Source: a virus. From it: a stretch of 40,802 nucleotides of DNA. Shown here in pieces: positions 4,609-11,264 of this stretch (positions are counted from its first letter, which is position 1; every line of letters starts with the position of its first letter). The translations under genes and the position numbers were made by a program. The DNA is taken from positions 1 through 40,802 of IMG/VR virus record IMGVR_UViG_3300044568_001728. One strand, 5' to 3'. The notes beneath the pieces were generated by a model. That model ran no database searches and had not been told where the DNA came from. It saw only the letters and a list, made by a program, of their open reading frames with translations.

Positions 4609-4889
4609 TGGAAAACCCACACGCTGAACCAAACAAACAACCACAACCACAAATCCATGATCGTCACAAGATCAAGACATTCCCACGACGACCCGATTTC
4701 GGTATGGGCGACCCAGTAGTGCGTGAATCCCAGCACGACATGGTCGAATACATGACCGAAGTAACCCGTGACATGAAACGAATTATGGACGAACACACGG
4801 TACTTATGAAGCAGTTACTGACTGTCATGACATCAATCCGAGATGCCCAACAGCAAGACCGTTGGAACCAGCAAAGGTACGGACGATGA
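4608..4889 (+). CDS. hypothetical coiled-coil protein
   Basis: 93 residues. A Pro/Gln/His-rich N-terminal 20 residues precede a basic segment and a long amphipathic helix (about residues 44-85, with VEYMTEVTRDMKRIMDEH and LMKQLLTVMTSIRDAQQ) predicted by eye to form a coiled coil. It begins on the last base of the preceding stop and overlaps the methyltransferase start, so it is translated as part of the early chain. No family was recognised. Confidence 0.6.
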   Translation: MENPHAEPNKQPQPQIHDRHKIKTFPRRPDFGMGDPVVRESQHDMVEYMTEVTRDMKRIMDEHTVLMKQLLTVMTSIRDAQQQDRWNQQRYGR

Positions 4890-6505
4890 CACTCACCTAC
4901 GGCAGCCTGTTCGCAGGCGTTGGTGGCTTTGACATGGGCATGGAGCAAGCAGGCTACGAGCCTGTCTTCCAGGTCGAATGGGATAAGAACTGCCAAAAGA
5001 TTCTGCATCGACATTGGCCGACAGTCCCCAAATGGGGTGATGTATGCGATGTCAACGGTGCAGACCTACCACCATGCGACGTGCTGATCTTCGGATCACC
5101 ATGTCAAGACTTATCAGTAGCAGGCAAGCGGGCTGGACTCCAAGACGGAGACAGATCATCAATGTTTTTTGAAGCCGTAAGAATTATTAAGGAGATGCGA
5201 GATGCAACTAACTCTATTTACCCAAGAGCCACCATTTGGGAAAACGTCCCAGGAGCCTTGTCAAGCAACAAAGGAGCCGACTTCGGTGTCGTCCTCTCAA
5301 GTTTGGCTGACATCGGGGCGATTACACAAGAATACGCCGTCTTGGACGCGCAATACTTCCGAAGCACCCCGCAACGACGAAGAAGAATATTTCTCGTCTC
5401 TATCTTCGATTCTGCAGCCAGCGAAAGATGTCCCGACCCGCTACTACCTCTCATCCAAGGCAGCCGAGGGGATTTTGCGAAGGGCCGAAAGGCGCGGAAA
5501 GACGCTACCCGATTTGCTTCGACAAGCATTGATTCAAGTGATGGAAAAGAAATAGTTCATACATCGTCATCATTTGGTGACTTTAGTGTCATTGGTTTCG
5601 GCACTCTTAGATCATCCGGTGGTGACTTAGGTGGTGGTTCAGAAACACTTGTTACCGCAATGGATCAAATCAATATGCCTATTTCTGAACTTGGGCCTAC
5701 ATTGACAACGACCTACGGTGCAAAGAATTATTCAAATCATCAAGAAGTAATGTCGGGATCAATTATACCTGTCGCATATTCGATCCGTGAAGATGCCAAA
5801 GCTAACAACTTCAGCGTAACCGAGACAGACACAGCCCTATGCCTCAACGGTCTAGTGCCATCAACACAATCACACCACGCACAAATCTTCATTGCCGAAC
5901 CACAACCACCATATGTTTTTGATGCTACGCGCCATGACGACTTCCGCATGGATACCGAAACCGTTCCGACCCTCAAGCAACGCATGGGAACCGGGGGTGG
6001 GCAAGTACCAATGCTTGCAGAAGCAATTGCCTACGATGATCTTAACGGTACGCTCAACACAGTACATGGTACGCTACGCGTAAAACGCAATGGCGATTTT
6101 ATTGCAGAACCAATTGTTTACGATGGCTACAACCAAAAGCTGGACGACAGCGGTGTACACCGTTCGTTGCGTATTGGTCGAGATAGTAGTGATTTTGTGG
6201 CACAACCTATCTATTCATTTGATACTCAATTTGGTAGCAACGCTGCCGTCCTTGAAGACCATTCCCCAACACTCAAATCGTCCCAACAACCGCCTTCGGT
6301 ATCCCCGCCAGGGTTGGCAGTACGTCGACTCACACCGCTGGAATGCGAGCGTTTGATGGGATGGCCCGACGATCACACCCGGTGGACAGCAGACGGCAAA
6401 GAACAAGCCGATACCAACCGCTACAAGCAATGCGGGAATGGTGTAGCGTCGCCCGTAGCTCGCTGGGTAGGCGAACAACTACGACCCGTACTGGAGACAG
6501 AATGA
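4886..6505 (+). CDS. C5 DNA cytosine methyltransferase with repeat insertion
   Basis: 539 residues from the ATG overlapping the upstream stop (ATGA). Motifs are in canonical order: I LFAGVGGFD (SAM binding, 8-16), IV GSPCQDLSVAG (catalytic Cys73), VI ENVPG (119-123), VIII AQYFRSTPQRRRR, IX RRLTPLECERLMGWP (near 480), X QCGNGVASPVA. It transfers a methyl group from SAM to C5 of cytosine, probably to shield phage DNA from host nucleases. No cognate restriction enzyme is nearby. Between motifs VIII and IX is an unusually long segment (about 270 residues) made of degenerate repeats (YD...TL+, then IAEP/VAQP), so the target-recognition part looks modular. Confidence 0.9.
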   Translation: MTLTYGSLFAGVGGFDMGMEQAGYEPVFQVEWDKNCQKILHRHWPTVPKWGDVCDVNGADLPPCDVLIFGSPCQDLSVAGKRAGLQDGDRSSMFFEAVRIIKEMRDATNSIYPRATIWENVPGALSSNKGADFGVVLSSLADIGAITQEYAVLDAQYFRSTPQRRRRIFLVSIFDSAASERCPDPLLPLIQGSRGDFAKGRKARKDATRFASTSIDSSDGKEIVHTSSSFGDFSVIGFGTLRSSGGDLGGGSETLVTAMDQINMPISELGPTLTTTYGAKNYSNHQEVMSGSIIPVAYSIREDAKANNFSVTETDTALCLNGLVPSTQSHHAQIFIAEPQPPYVFDATRHDDFRMDTETVPTLKQRMGTGGGQVPMLAEAIAYDDLNGTLNTVHGTLRVKRNGDFIAEPIVYDGYNQKLDDSGVHRSLRIGRDSSDFVAQPIYSFDTQFGSNAAVLEDHSPTLKSSQQPPSVSPPGLAVRRLTPLECERLMGWPDDHTRWTADGKEQADTNRYKQCGNGVASPVARWVGEQLRPVLETE

Positions 6506-6627
6506 ACCAACTATCGCCCGAGGAGCAACGATTCGTGGACAAAACAGTTGAAGTCATCTACTTCGCAGGACTAGCGGCAACGTGTGTCGCGATCCTGTGG
6601 TGGATCATCGGCAAGATCACGAAATAA
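6502..6627 (+). CDS. 41-residue single-pass membrane protein
   Basis: ATG at 6502 overlaps the methyltransferase stop (ATGA). Following a short charged N-terminus (NQLSPEEQRFVDK) comes one membrane segment (VIYFAGLAATCVAILWWIIG) and a KITK tail. It is the last gene of the rightward early cluster and its end overlaps the converging integrase-like gene by 11 bases. The function is unknown. Confidence 0.6.
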   Translation: MNQLSPEEQRFVDKTVEVIYFAGLAATCVAILWWIIGKITK

Positions 6628-7516
6628 CCGAGTCAGGTGCAGAACCCGACCCGAATCTGTCCCCATCAGGCTCGACCACAATCTGAGCTATGACATCAGC
6701 CTGACTAACCAGCGAAACAGGATTGAGTAGGCGCAAAGTCTGCCGAACATACCTATCGTTCGTATGGCCGAGCCACTTCGCAATCACCGGGACAGCAACA
6801 CCACGCTGAAACTGACGCTGAACAGCCCAACGACGCATATCCTGCACCGTAAGCCGACGACCAACAGCACCCGAAGCGACATCATTGATCGTCTCAGTCG
6901 CGTGCTTAGAACCAAACGTCCCACCGAGCGTAGTAGTCGCAGCGAACACCGCCGTAAGACCGAGAGTCAACACTTCAAGGCGACCGTCCACCGGGATCTC
7001 GCGCCTGTTGCCTCGACGAGAACGCACCGTGACTAGCGTCTTCCCTTCCCAAGTGCGAACATCCGTCTTACGAATCCGAAGAGCTTCAGCGCAGTCACAG
7101 CCACCCCAGGCAACCATCGCAGCGAGCCATTCCCACCGAGGCCCACGCTGAGAAAACGCTGACATGACCAGCACCATCTCATCATCGGACGGCACAGTTG
7201 AATTATCAAGCACGATGACCCGCTTCGGCATCTTCACCGAATGCAAACCGTGAACCTTCAGAACACCAGCATCGACCAGCGCATCCATCCACTTAGCGAC
7301 CCCACAAACCCGTGAAGCAACCGACGTTGATGTGTACCGAGAAGCCATCCAATCCACAAACAGTTGAGCGTTCACCGCCGTGCAATCCAGGGGATGAATG
7401 TCCACCAAGCCGCACCACCGTTGCCAAGTCATAATGTCTTTTTTGTACCGCTTACGAGTATGTATCGAGGCGTAACCCCCCAAGAAATGAGCTGTAACAG
7501 AGCGAACAGAAGCCAT
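6617..7516 (-). CDS. tyrosine-recombinase-like protein, catalytic residues altered
   Basis: 299 residues. Residues 5-90 form a core-binding SAM-like domain (TRKRYKKDIMTWQRWC, VNAQLFVDWMASR); residues 105-265 look like the catalytic domain. The residues expected for activity are mostly missing. The first Arg box (usually G-L-R-x-x-E) reads GGCDCAE, placing Asp141 where Arg should be; the HxLR box reads QDMR (His to Gln at 225, Arg228 kept); the GH pair is intact (H251); nine residues on, where the nucleophilic Tyr is expected, is Thr260. A Tyr at 256 is offset. It may be a DNA-binding relic, a regulator, or a divergent enzyme. Confidence 0.75.
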   Translation of the reverse strand: MASVRSVTAHFLGGYASIHTRKRYKKDIMTWQRWCGLVDIHPLDCTAVNAQLFVDWMASRYTSTSVASRVCGVAKWMDALVDAGVLKVHGLHSVKMPKRVIVLDNSTVPSDDEMVLVMSAFSQRGPRWEWLAAMVAWGGCDCAEALRIRKTDVRTWEGKTLVTVRSRRGNRREIPVDGRLEVLTLGLTAVFAATTTLGGTFGSKHATETINDVASGAVGRRLTVQDMRRWAVQRQFQRGVAVPVIAKWLGHTNDRYVRQTLRLLNPVSLVSQADVIAQIVVEPDGDRFGSGSAPDSVIS

Positions 7517-9139: not shown

Positions 9140-9543
9140 AACGCCACCGCCGAACCATTCGCGCAACCGTCACAAACAAACGCGAACGAACGAGAGTCGC
9201 CCATTACATCCCACGGAACGACAGGTGCATCTAATGGATTCACCAACCGCCGAGACGCGCCCGCGCTCTCGCACGACGGACAAATGAACGAGCCCAACAA
9301 CTCGCGCAACTGTGCGCGCTTGGTTGACTTGCCACCAATAAACGCCCGCCACCTTGCCGCATCGCCCACTTCAGGAATCGCAACACCGAGCCGTTGGGCG
9401 ATCTCATCTATTACGCCGTCATCAAAAAAGTCGTCACCCGATAGGCGCGCTAGATCGTGGTCATCTAATCGGTCGGCATCAACTAAGACACACTCAGACG
9501 CGTCAAAAACTACGCCCGACTCATGCACGATAAATTTGCTCAC
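9136..9543 (-). CDS. hypothetical acidic protein with C-terminal zinc ribbon
   Basis: 135 residues. The first half is acidic (VLVDADRLDDHDLARLSGDDFFDD) and includes a helix-turn-helix-like VIDEIAQRLGVAIPEVG. The second half has CPSCESAG and CDGCANG, forming a probable zinc ribbon. It overlaps the genes on both sides by four bases. The function is unknown; its Cys layout and coupling to the GP88-like gene suggest the two act together. Confidence 0.6.
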   Translation of the reverse strand: MSKFIVHESGVVFDASECVLVDADRLDDHDLARLSGDDFFDDGVIDEIAQRLGVAIPEVGDAARWRAFIGGKSTKRAQLRELLGSFICPSCESAGASRRLVNPLDAPVVPWDVMGDSRSFAFVCDGCANGSAVAL

Positions 9544-9824
9544 GATTCCACCCCCGCAAAATGAACGCGCAACAACTCGGCGAACTCATTAACCACGGCG
9601 AGAATTTGGCAAGCATCAGAAGAAACCGAACCGCCCCGCGGCACCTGGCGAACAATGGCAACGGCAACGACCGCCACCTGCTCATCAATCCATTCAAGCC
9701 GACCCCGCACGCTTGGCCACGGAACGCTGAGTGCGGGCAGGTTGAGATCATGCACGCTAACCCCGCACGCTGGCGCGTCTTCGGACGGCGCGCCCGCCGT
9801 CATTGATTCATTACCGGTCATCAT
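9540..9824 (-). CDS. hypothetical protein
   Basis: 94 residues. A Met-Met start is preceded on the minus strand by GATAGGGGTTA, the strong ribosome leader used three times in this operon. The N-terminal 20 residues look disordered; then come a helical segment (RGRLEWIDEQVAVVAVAIVRQV) and a C-terminal helix (CQILAVVNEFAELLRVHFAG). No family was recognised. The stop overlaps the next start (ATGA). Confidence 0.6.
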   Translation of the reverse strand: MMTGNESMTAGAPSEDAPACGVSVHDLNLPALSVPWPSVRGRLEWIDEQVAVVAVAIVRQVPRGGSVSSDACQILAVVNEFAELLRVHFAGVES

Positions 9825-9872
9825 TAACCCCTATCTGTTTAGGTGATTCCCCAACGGAACCACAGCGCCCAG

Positions 9873-9905
9873 CCGAGTTACGAACTCGGAGAACCCCGCA
9901 GGGCT
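9873..9905 (-). ncRNA. repeated intergenic RNA element, copy 2
   Basis: In the 92-base gap 9825-9916. Read leftward: AGCCCTGCGGGGTT (9905-9892, a five-pair hairpin with a TGCG loop), two bases, then CCGAG-ttcgtaa-CTCGG (9889-9873). The same two-hairpin design occurs at 10219-10251 with an identical 14-mer and a compensated second stem. It starts about 11 bases after the upstream stop. It may be a processing site, attenuator or protein-binding site. Confidence 0.5.
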
Positions 9906-9916
9906 GAGCTAACAAC

Positions 9917-10171
9917 TCAAGAAACGTAGTTCAGCCAATCCTGAGCCATGCGAACCGTCAGCGCGACTAGTTCGCCGTCGTTGTACATACCGATTAACTC
10001 GGGGAACAGATCCGAAGCCATGTCGGCGATCTCGTAACCAACTAAAACAGGTTCGTCGTTCGCCTCCTCCAAGAATTCCTCCCACGTCTTGCCGGTGCTG
10101 CGGGGATCGCGAGCAATCTTCTCGTAGTCACAAACCGCCTGACACACTTTCGCGTAAATTGATAATTCCAT
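9917..10171 (-). CDS. small acidic hypothetical protein
   Basis: 84 residues, strongly acidic, mostly helical (MELSIYAKVCQAVCDYEKIA; WEEFLEEANDEP; MASDLFPELIGMYNDGE). The ribosome leader is GATAAGGGGTTCAT. The gene stands alone between two copies of a structured RNA element. Size, charge and place in an accessory operon are compatible with an inhibitor of a host protein, for example an anti-defence factor, but no family supports that. Confidence 0.6.
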   Translation of the reverse strand: MELSIYAKVCQAVCDYEKIARDPRSTGKTWEEFLEEANDEPVLVGYEIADMASDLFPELIGMYNDGELVALTVRMAQDWLNYVS

Positions 10172-10218
10172 TATGAACCCCTTATCTATGAACCCGCCGA
10201 GTAGCGAGTAGCGCGTAG

Positions 10219-10251
10219 TCGGGCTACGAACCCGATAAACCCCGCAGGGCT
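10219..10251 (-). ncRNA. repeated intergenic RNA element, copy 1
   Basis: In the 92-base gap 10172-10263. Read leftward: the 14-mer AGCCCTGCGGGGTT (10251-10238), two bases, then TCGGG-ttcgtag-CCCGA (10235-10219). Compared with the copy at 9873-9905, the outer and the fourth pair of the second stem are both changed on both strands (U-A to C-G, G-C to A-U), so pairing is kept. The seven-base loop UUCGUAR is shared. Confidence 0.5.
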
Positions 10252-10263
10252 ACGCCAGCCAGG

Positions 10264-10611
10264 TCAACCCTTAGAAACTAAATGCACGTCATGCCAATCG
10301 GACACACCCCACGACACAACTAAACGACGGTAGTTCGTCGTCGGCGCGCCGTCTTCCCAATCGTATGCCCACAGCGACCACTCGCAATCTTCATCTACAT
10401 CGGGCACCGAGTCAGCGTCAGCCGAAACAATATAAAGCCGACCCCACGACGCGCACCAGCGACCCTCCTCATCTCTCAGGCTCTCAACGAGTCCATTGTC
10501 AAGCCAGCGCGTCATCTCTGCTTCGGCTTCGGCTTGAGTGTTGAATGAGTAGAAATCGGAGTCGGCTTCGGTGTCATAAACCGCCCACCAAATTTGAGGC
10601 TTCGCGTTCAT
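10264..10611 (-). CDS. acidic Trp-rich hypothetical protein
   Basis: 115 residues, acidic with many Trp (WWAVYDTEADSDFYSF; CEWSLWAYDWEDGA; SWGVSDWHDVHLV). The start directly abuts the stop of the upstream gene, so the pair is coupled. The alternating aromatic strands suggest a small beta protein. No family was recognised. Confidence 0.6.
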   Translation of the reverse strand: MNAKPQIWWAVYDTEADSDFYSFNTQAEAEAEMTRWLDNGLVESLRDEEGRWCASWGRLYIVSADADSVPDVDEDCEWSLWAYDWEDGAPTTNYRRLVVSWGVSDWHDVHLVSKG

Positions 10612-10968
10612 TCAGATCACCCCCGAAAAACATTGAGCGACCAACGAACCGTCAGGACGAACCATCAACGAGTAAACCAACTCAGCGAAATCTTCCGCAT
10701 TGCACACTTCATTCAGATCTACGTCTGAATACTCGGTGTCTGTAAACAAGCCGACCGTCTCAAAAGCCAACGATGCAAAAGCCATCTCAGGATGGAAAAA
10801 GTCCACACCCGATTGACCGTCAGTCAACCACAGCCGACCAATCTTGCCGTTAATCAATGCGCGGCACACAAGAGACTCACAGCCCCCGCCCGTGCTGGTT
10901 CGTTCCCAATAGCCACCGGTGACCGCGTTAAGTTCGCGGATCACCTCATCCACTAATTGCTGATTCAT
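10612..10968 (-). CDS. hypothetical protein, first gene of leftward operon
   Basis: 118 residues, ribosome leader AAGGGGTTCAA. An N-terminal helix (QQLVDEVIRELNAVTGGYW) is followed by strands and a LNEVCNAEDFAELVYSLMVRPDG helix. It is acidic overall. No family was recognised. It is the first gene behind the leftward promoter at 11027-11055. Confidence 0.6.
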   Translation of the reverse strand: MNQQLVDEVIRELNAVTGGYWERTSTGGGCESLVCRALINGKIGRLWLTDGQSGVDFFHPEMAFASLAFETVGLFTDTEYSDVDLNEVCNAEDFAELVYSLMVRPDGSLVAQCFSGVI

Positions 10969-10988
10969 TTGAACCCCTTATATGTTGA

Positions 10989-11010
10989 CCGCCGAAGCGG
11001 GCGAGCCCGC
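10989..11010 (-). promoter_or_regulatory. mutually exclusive hairpins in the leftward leader
   Basis: In the leader between the leftward promoter and the ATG at 10968, GCGGGC-tc-GCCCGC (11010-10997 read leftward) and CCGC-ttcg-GCGG (11000-10989) share bases, so only one can form. The second has a stable UUCG loop. There is no T run after either, so neither is a simple terminator. A switch or stability element is possible. Confidence 0.35.
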
Positions 11011-11026
11011 ACGGACTCACCCCAAC

Positions 11027-11055
11027 ATTGAACCACACCTGGCGACCATAGTCAA
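11027..11055 (-). promoter_or_regulatory. leftward operon promoter
   Basis: Read leftward: TTGACT (11055-11050), 17 bases, TTCAAT (11032-11027), matching five and four of six consensus positions at ideal spacing. The predicted transcript starts near 11020, about 50 bases before the first leftward ATG (10968). The -35 hexamer is the same as in the rightward early promoter at 1291. Confidence 0.6.
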
Positions 11056-11264
11056 GTGTTAACCCCCCCAACATCGGGACGACCAAAACCAAACCACAAA
11101 GCCCGAAATTATTCGGAGCAAGACGTGCACCGCTACCGAGTCCCTGTCGGCAAGCACGCTCACGAGACAGCGTCAGCGGGAGACCAACCGAGGAACGAGG
11201 GCGGTAGCACCCCGTGAGGAATCGCAATCCATCGCCACCGATCAGACCCCGCGCACCCAATCGG

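Follow-up and report, generated by a model that had tools for sequence, protein, structure and literature searches.

Two gaps between genes on the minus strand of a viral DNA record (IMG/VR IMGVR_UViG_3300044568_001728; the whole 40,802-nucleotide stretch analysed is termed the window) each harbor a small tRNA-like RNA element, designated A and B, and 51 distinct copies of this element were found across 17 viral contigs, the window included. The tRNA-like structure itself is very likely real. On the basis of sequence comparison, we favor, at a probability of roughly 0.45, a role for it as a cis-acting, tRNA-mimicking intercistronic element which would process or insulate the polycistronic phage mRNA, with punctuation of the message, by cutting or by end formation, as the first choice.

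Fold and surroundings of the window copies

The preliminary description of this region reported two gaps of 92 bases, each with an identical 14-mer, two further bases and a five-pair stem with a seven-base loop. These observations are borne out: the gaps span 9825-9916 and 10172-10263, the 14-mer AGCCCTGCGGGGTT is present exactly twice on the minus strand (9892-9905 and 10238-10251), and the stem that follows it after two bases carries the loop TTCGTAR. The stems, TCGGG/CCCGA in element A and CCGAG/CTCGG in element B, differ on both sides at pairs 1 and 4, as had been noted. The hairpins described as a two-hairpin element are thus present, but the count falls short, the fold being a three-way junction (P1, P2 and P3) followed by a 3′ hairpin (P4). 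Furthermore, the bounds given, 9873-10251, were too narrow, the 6-bp closing stem P1 and the 3′ hairpin P4 having been overlooked (Table 1).

When folded as single sequences with RNAfold, both window copies form the three-way junction and P4. P2 has the form CCC-TGCG-GGG in these copies, while P3 is a 5-bp stem with the loop UUCGUAR and is stacked flush on P1, with no base between them. On the minus strand each gap is ordered, 5′ to 3′, as the three-way junction P1/P2/P3, P4, ribosome-binding site and start codon. The folding energy is unexceptional for the composition of copy A (z -0.78), and copy B has a z of -2.51.

Table 1. Elements, stems and flanking reading frames in the window (positions of the window)
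Feature	Position	Strand	Details or basis
Element A, tRNA-like three-way junction	10213..10255	(-)	sequence, R1 match, RNAfold, covariation
P1 of element A	10250-10255/10213-10218	(-)	6-bp closing stem GCGTAG/CTACGC
P2 of element A	10240-10249	(-)	small hairpin, within the 14-mer
P3 of element A, T-arm-like	10219-10235	(-)	loop 10224-10230
P4 hairpin of element A	10192..10209	(-)	7 bp, ACTCGCT/GGCGGGT; three bases past P1, the first two being G73-C74
Likely ribosome-binding site AAGGGG ahead of ATG 10171	10178..10183	(-)	sequence
Element B, fold as in element A	9867..9909	(-)	sequence, R1 and covariance searches, RNAfold
P1 of element B	9904-9909/9867-9872	(-)	6-bp closing stem GCTCAG/CTGGGC
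P2 of element B	9894-9903	(-)	
P3 of element B	9873-9889	(-)	loop 9878-9884
P4 hairpin of element B	9843..9863	(-)	8 bp, GTGGTTCC/GGAATCAC; likewise three bases past P1
Likely ribosome-binding site AGGGG ahead of ATG 9824	9828..9832	(-)	sequence
ORF upstream of element A	10264..10611	(-)	stop codon 8 nt ahead of P1
ORF between elements A and B	9917..10171	(-)	84 aa, no known family
ORF downstream of element B	9540..9824	(-)	

Both elements lie at gapped junctions, while the neighboring junctions at 10612/10611, 9543/9540 and 9166/9136, where the reading frames abut or overlap, carry none. An operon leader at 10969-11070 (-), with a similar counterpart in contig L003, contains G+C-rich inverted repeats of its own before AAGGGG and ATG and is without the tRNA-like fold. 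A cytosine methyltransferase gene (4862-6505) and an integrase-like ORF (6617-7516) adjoin the operon, and the window phage may be temperate.

The two copies flank one small gene, encoding an 84 amino acid protein, and the preliminary description raised the idea of a toxin-antitoxin type unit, in which the elements would be the RNA part. Nothing other than this flanking position speaks for the idea, which we consider hardly credible, as the element, across the 17 contigs, separates many genes that are unrelated to one another. Neither Pfam nor NCBIfam has a family matching the protein, and its PHROG and PADLOC matches are marginal; the closest toxin-type match, to DrmC (E 0.0018), is itself a marginal one, and relatives of the protein were found only in the contig of L003. 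Type III toxin-antitoxin systems have a ToxN-like endonuclease gene preceded by RNA repeats in tandem; such a system was rejected here, as no toxin family was found and the element repeats are not in tandem.

Further copies, covariation and distribution

The covariance search put forward as a test in the preliminary description returned many further copies in which the pairing is kept. Copies were gathered through pattern scans of IMG/VR, the first of which (14-mer plus loop) identified four contigs with the same layout between other genes, and through two covariance models, R1 and R2; 41 of the 51 copies were measured in a first set and ten in a later set. The copies cluster, a single contig carrying as many as seven (L076). 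The seed of R1 comprised 14 copies and included neither of the window copies; with this model, copy A scored 23.0 bits (E 5.7e-4) while copy B reached 16.3 bits (E 0.046). Among 56 unrelated decoy loci the top score was 17.2 bits, so that R1 by itself does not set copy B apart, and the standing of copy B rests on a predicted fold and a place identical with those of copy A and its relatives.

Pattern-scan loci lacking the full fold were set aside as chance matches, including 41 of 44 newly returned loci in one scan and 14 of 18 in another; the matches in L069, L091, L093 and L096 were discarded for want of a full fold. The L090 locus was likewise set aside: it does fold, but on inspection by eye P1 there runs into coding sequence. 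The count furthermore omits near-duplicates of L095 (L092 and L097), partial elements (L021 1-34 and L086 11001-11026) and weak matches (L026 5848, window 8234 on the plus strand and L083 9631). A pattern scan of genome_contigs gave two loci, both attributed to chance, one a terminator-like hairpin and the other apparent coding sequence.

No blastn match in cultured phages was found for the window operon or for an L004 element, and the L068 element gave only a 20-base match (E 0.8) in the same comparison. Searches by tblastn with two clamp-like genes and one other neighbor found no near relative. At the gathering cut-off, Rfam had no match in the window and L003-L006; matches below threshold were to tRNA-Sec (L084 6285-6356; 24.2 bits against a cut-off of 47) and to an antisense plastid family. 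A literature search, covering mainly open-access titles and the openings of abstracts and thus weak evidence of novelty, found no such element described.

The preliminary description held that structure is kept through compensatory changes, and covariation across the further copies agrees, pointing to conservation of structure rather than of sequence. In a plain MAFFT alignment of ten copies (A5), for which the structure was supplied by the analyst, 98.6% of the cells pair, double-sided changes are seen in 10 of 14 pairs, and covariation scores 0.643, compared with 0.210 in shuffles and at most 0.141 in slid controls. Alignment A3 (32 copies), which was fitted to the model, scores 0.560 against 0.143. 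A2, whose 14 copies were in part chosen with a pattern that fixes most of P1, scores 0.437 against 0.148, while its count of double-changed pairs is not exceptional, being matched by 83 of 500 shuffles. A P4 of at least 6 bp is found at an offset of 2-4 in 44/51 copies, while 200 shuffled sets averaged 1.4 such copies and never exceeded 5.

By terminase and portal, the element-bearing phages fall into at least two lineages that are unrelated to each other. The window's lineage is characterized by a phrog_979 TerL, with a 98% identical TerL in L082, and a P22-like portal, and the other by a phrog_38 TerL and a phrog_104 portal; lineage B of the two is distantly related to Streptomyces phages. 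Elements at unrelated junctions can be 93-95% alike (L074 3878 and L078 18275: 95%), and those at homologous junctions are 63-98% alike. Relative to the window, L026 harbors one extra gene-plus-element unit between homologs of the same two genes, while L086 is without one such unit that is present in L076. The DNA homology between the window and L026 ends at 9844, beside element B, and resumes at 10973. Sliding-clamp-like genes with elements on both sides are found in L049 (472-1134), L051 (1245-1928) and L076 (15417-16061); the assignment is by Pfam DNA_pol3_beta_2, above cut-off in L051 and below it in L049, and for L076 by blastp to both.

Likeness to tRNA

The elements share with the acceptor/T-arm half of tRNA their stacked acceptor-like and T stems, a strict T-loop (UUCRANY) in 32/51 copies and the bases R73-C74, while differing from tRNA in their length of 41-49 nt, the absence of a D arm, a tiny hairpin in place of the anticodon arm and a tail that mostly reads CUA rather than CCA. 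The T-arm likeness proposed in the preliminary description therefore stands, with the reservation that the window's own loops, UUCGUAA and UUCGUAG, are a less canonical variant. Part of the loop count reflects selection, as 25 copies match a T-loop search pattern; among the 26 copies selected by no such pattern, 14 carry the strict T-loop. Non-canonical loops are present in 13/51 copies, namely UUCGUAR in seven, both window copies included, and GUCRUA in six.

Past P1, R73 is found in 49/51 and C74 in 50/51 copies, and base 75 is U in 43/51 and C in a single one. Where copies were selected by no tail pattern (n=33), R73 is present in 31 and C74 in 32. The sole C74 exception, L026 7452, also reads C74 by eye if P1 is extended to 7 bp. 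P1 and P3 stack flush in 33 of 41 copies and together comprise 11 bp in most, compared with the 12 bp of the acceptor and T stack of tRNA. The window copies thus have stacked acceptor/T stems without a canonical T-loop. With no D arm, there is none for a D/T-loop contact, and P2 sits where the anticodon arm would be.

ARAGORN called no tRNA genes in the element-bearing contigs. When the Streptomyces phage Immanuel3 was searched with R1, eight of the ten matches fell within annotated tRNA genes. A T-arm match between the annotated tRNA-Pro and tRNA-Gly of this phage (L088 16125-16141) is possibly an unannotated tRNA. In the lone L094 element (9337-9388, minus strand), P1 and P2 are joined by a D-loop-like linker of 7 nt, CATGGTG; this element is perhaps an intermediate between tRNA and the shorter form.

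Possible roles at gene junctions

When same-strand ORFs are compared, one ends before and another starts after the element in all copies. With the flanking ORFs picked by length and ribosome-binding site, which leaves a few distances uncertain (one gap of -5, one of 38), the stop codon is located 6-8 nt ahead of P1 in 26/41 copies and in 8/10 of the later set, and the next start codon 35-53 nt past P1 in 37/41 copies. The frame of the stop codon relative to the next start is random (16/14/11 among 41 copies), making a fusion by read-through unlikely, and read-through or frameshifting was set aside on this ground. An intrinsic terminator was also rejected, as the tails, judged by eye, are mostly purine-rich and lack a U run. 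In Immanuel3 (L088 41100-43000, minus strand), gene gaps contain other inverted repeats, belonging to another family, before GGGAGAG ribosome-binding sites.

In the reading that we favor, the operon mRNA would be split into single-gene messages by a tRNA-processing nuclease of the host, RNase P being the most likely, which would cut on the 5′ side of P1, directly past the stop codon. Pairing in P1 and the P4 that follows should protect the new 5′ ends; the element would punctuate the operon in the way that tRNAs punctuate mitochondrial transcripts. In these phages genes are gained and lost as gene-plus-element units. The flush stacking of P1 and P3, the location of P2 in the place of the anticodon arm and the succession of R73-C74, P4, ribosome-binding site and start codon argue for this reading, and a processing role, as contemplated in the preliminary description, is in our judgement plausible. 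RNase P would be the likeliest enzyme, since stacked acceptor and T stems, a T-loop and R73-C74 are features read by bacterial RNase P. According to the portion of the source available, RNase P RNA pairs with R73-C74-C75, and in one study RNA without the RCC motif was not cleaved (PMC12710915), while the accessible text of a further source lists phage RNAs and an mRNA among known RNase P substrates (PMC11143913). Against this enzyme are U75 in the place of the C of RCC, the 11-bp stack, the missing D arm and the non-canonical loops of 13/51 copies. Against punctuation more generally, the upstream message would be left with an unprotected 3′ end if only one cut were made. More tentatively, several unrelated phage lineages may use truncated tRNA mimics, which recruit the host tRNA-processing machinery, to punctuate polycistronic mRNAs, with each accessory gene travelling with its own mimic.

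Other functions were ranked behind punctuation, with translation insulation second, stability or protein binding third and a DNA site fourth. As a translational insulator or a control of re-initiation, the folded block would, in the absence of cleavage, stop run-through or scanning by the terminating ribosome and present P4 and the ribosome-binding site. The tight spacing of the stop codon and the presence of the window elements at gapped junctions, with none where neighboring ORFs abut or overlap, are consistent with such a role; we nevertheless hold it to be doubtful, since the T-loop, the near-invariant C74 and the likeness to tRNA genes are left unexplained and the random stop/start frame makes read-through fusion unlikely in any case. 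A stability element of the 3′ or 5′ end, or a binding site for RNase Z, for a block to RNase E/J, for a T-arm-binding modification enzyme or for a phage protein, would dispense with RNase P and could account for the conserved T-loop and for a three-way junction and P4 ahead of the next gene. This is unlikely, as no candidate partner protein was identified and C74 is easier to reconcile with RNase P than with RNase Z, a 3′ CCA being an antideterminant for the latter according to the part of the source available (PMC4919913).

The gain and loss of gene-plus-element units (L026 versus the window, L086 versus L076), the break of the window/L026 homology by element B, the 93-95% likeness of elements at unrelated junctions and the integrase-like ORF at 6617-7516 could also be explained by a single-strand DNA recombination site that bounds gene cassettes in the manner of attC. 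Integron attC sites are defined by R and L boxes, a bottom-strand fold and an integron integrase. We regard a site of this type as very improbable here, since homologous recombination at repeats would give the same pattern and the T-loop, P4 and ribosome-binding context indicate RNA. The wobbles in P1 and P3, counted on the sense strand of 41 copies, comprise 14 G.U and one A.C, a count biased by finders that permitted G.U and not A.C; this excess on the coding strand likewise argues for RNA rather than a bottom-strand DNA site.

Among known systems, RNase P substrates and viral tRNA-like structures, such as plant virus 3′ ends, phage M3 RNA, C4 RNA and T4 gene 32 mRNA, share tRNA mimicry inside a longer RNA, as far as the accessible text describes them (PMC11143913); the present elements differ in their many copies, their location at gene junctions of DNA phages and their fixed layout of stop codon, P4 and start codon. 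By position, the nearest phage precedent in the sources consulted is the ESAS of Cluster K mycobacteriophages, the SAS/ESAS being repeats that precede the starts of non-structural genes, with an inverted repeat upstream of the ribosome-binding site; its authors state, in the portion available, that changes in the ESAS repeat do not generally support RNA pairing (PMC3203893), whereas the pairs of the present elements covary, which sets them apart from SAS/ESAS. Mitochondrial tRNA punctuation, as outlined in the available part of PMC8601606, likewise places tRNA-shaped units between cistrons as proposed cutting points, although the present elements are not functional tRNAs and the cutting is here a proposal from sequence.

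tRNA-like structures are already known, and it is their use here that is uncommon. Unmatched in Rfam 15 at the gathering cut-off, and having a fold of about half a tRNA and a fixed place at gene junctions, the element would constitute a new family of structured phage RNA, and its distribution shows genes being exchanged as modules bounded by an RNA spacer. It offers a direct test of the idea that phages control the expression of individual operon genes with borrowed tRNA-processing enzymes. If punctuation is indeed its role, it would represent a viral parallel of mitochondrial tRNA punctuation, in which an inserted gene brings along its own cutting site.
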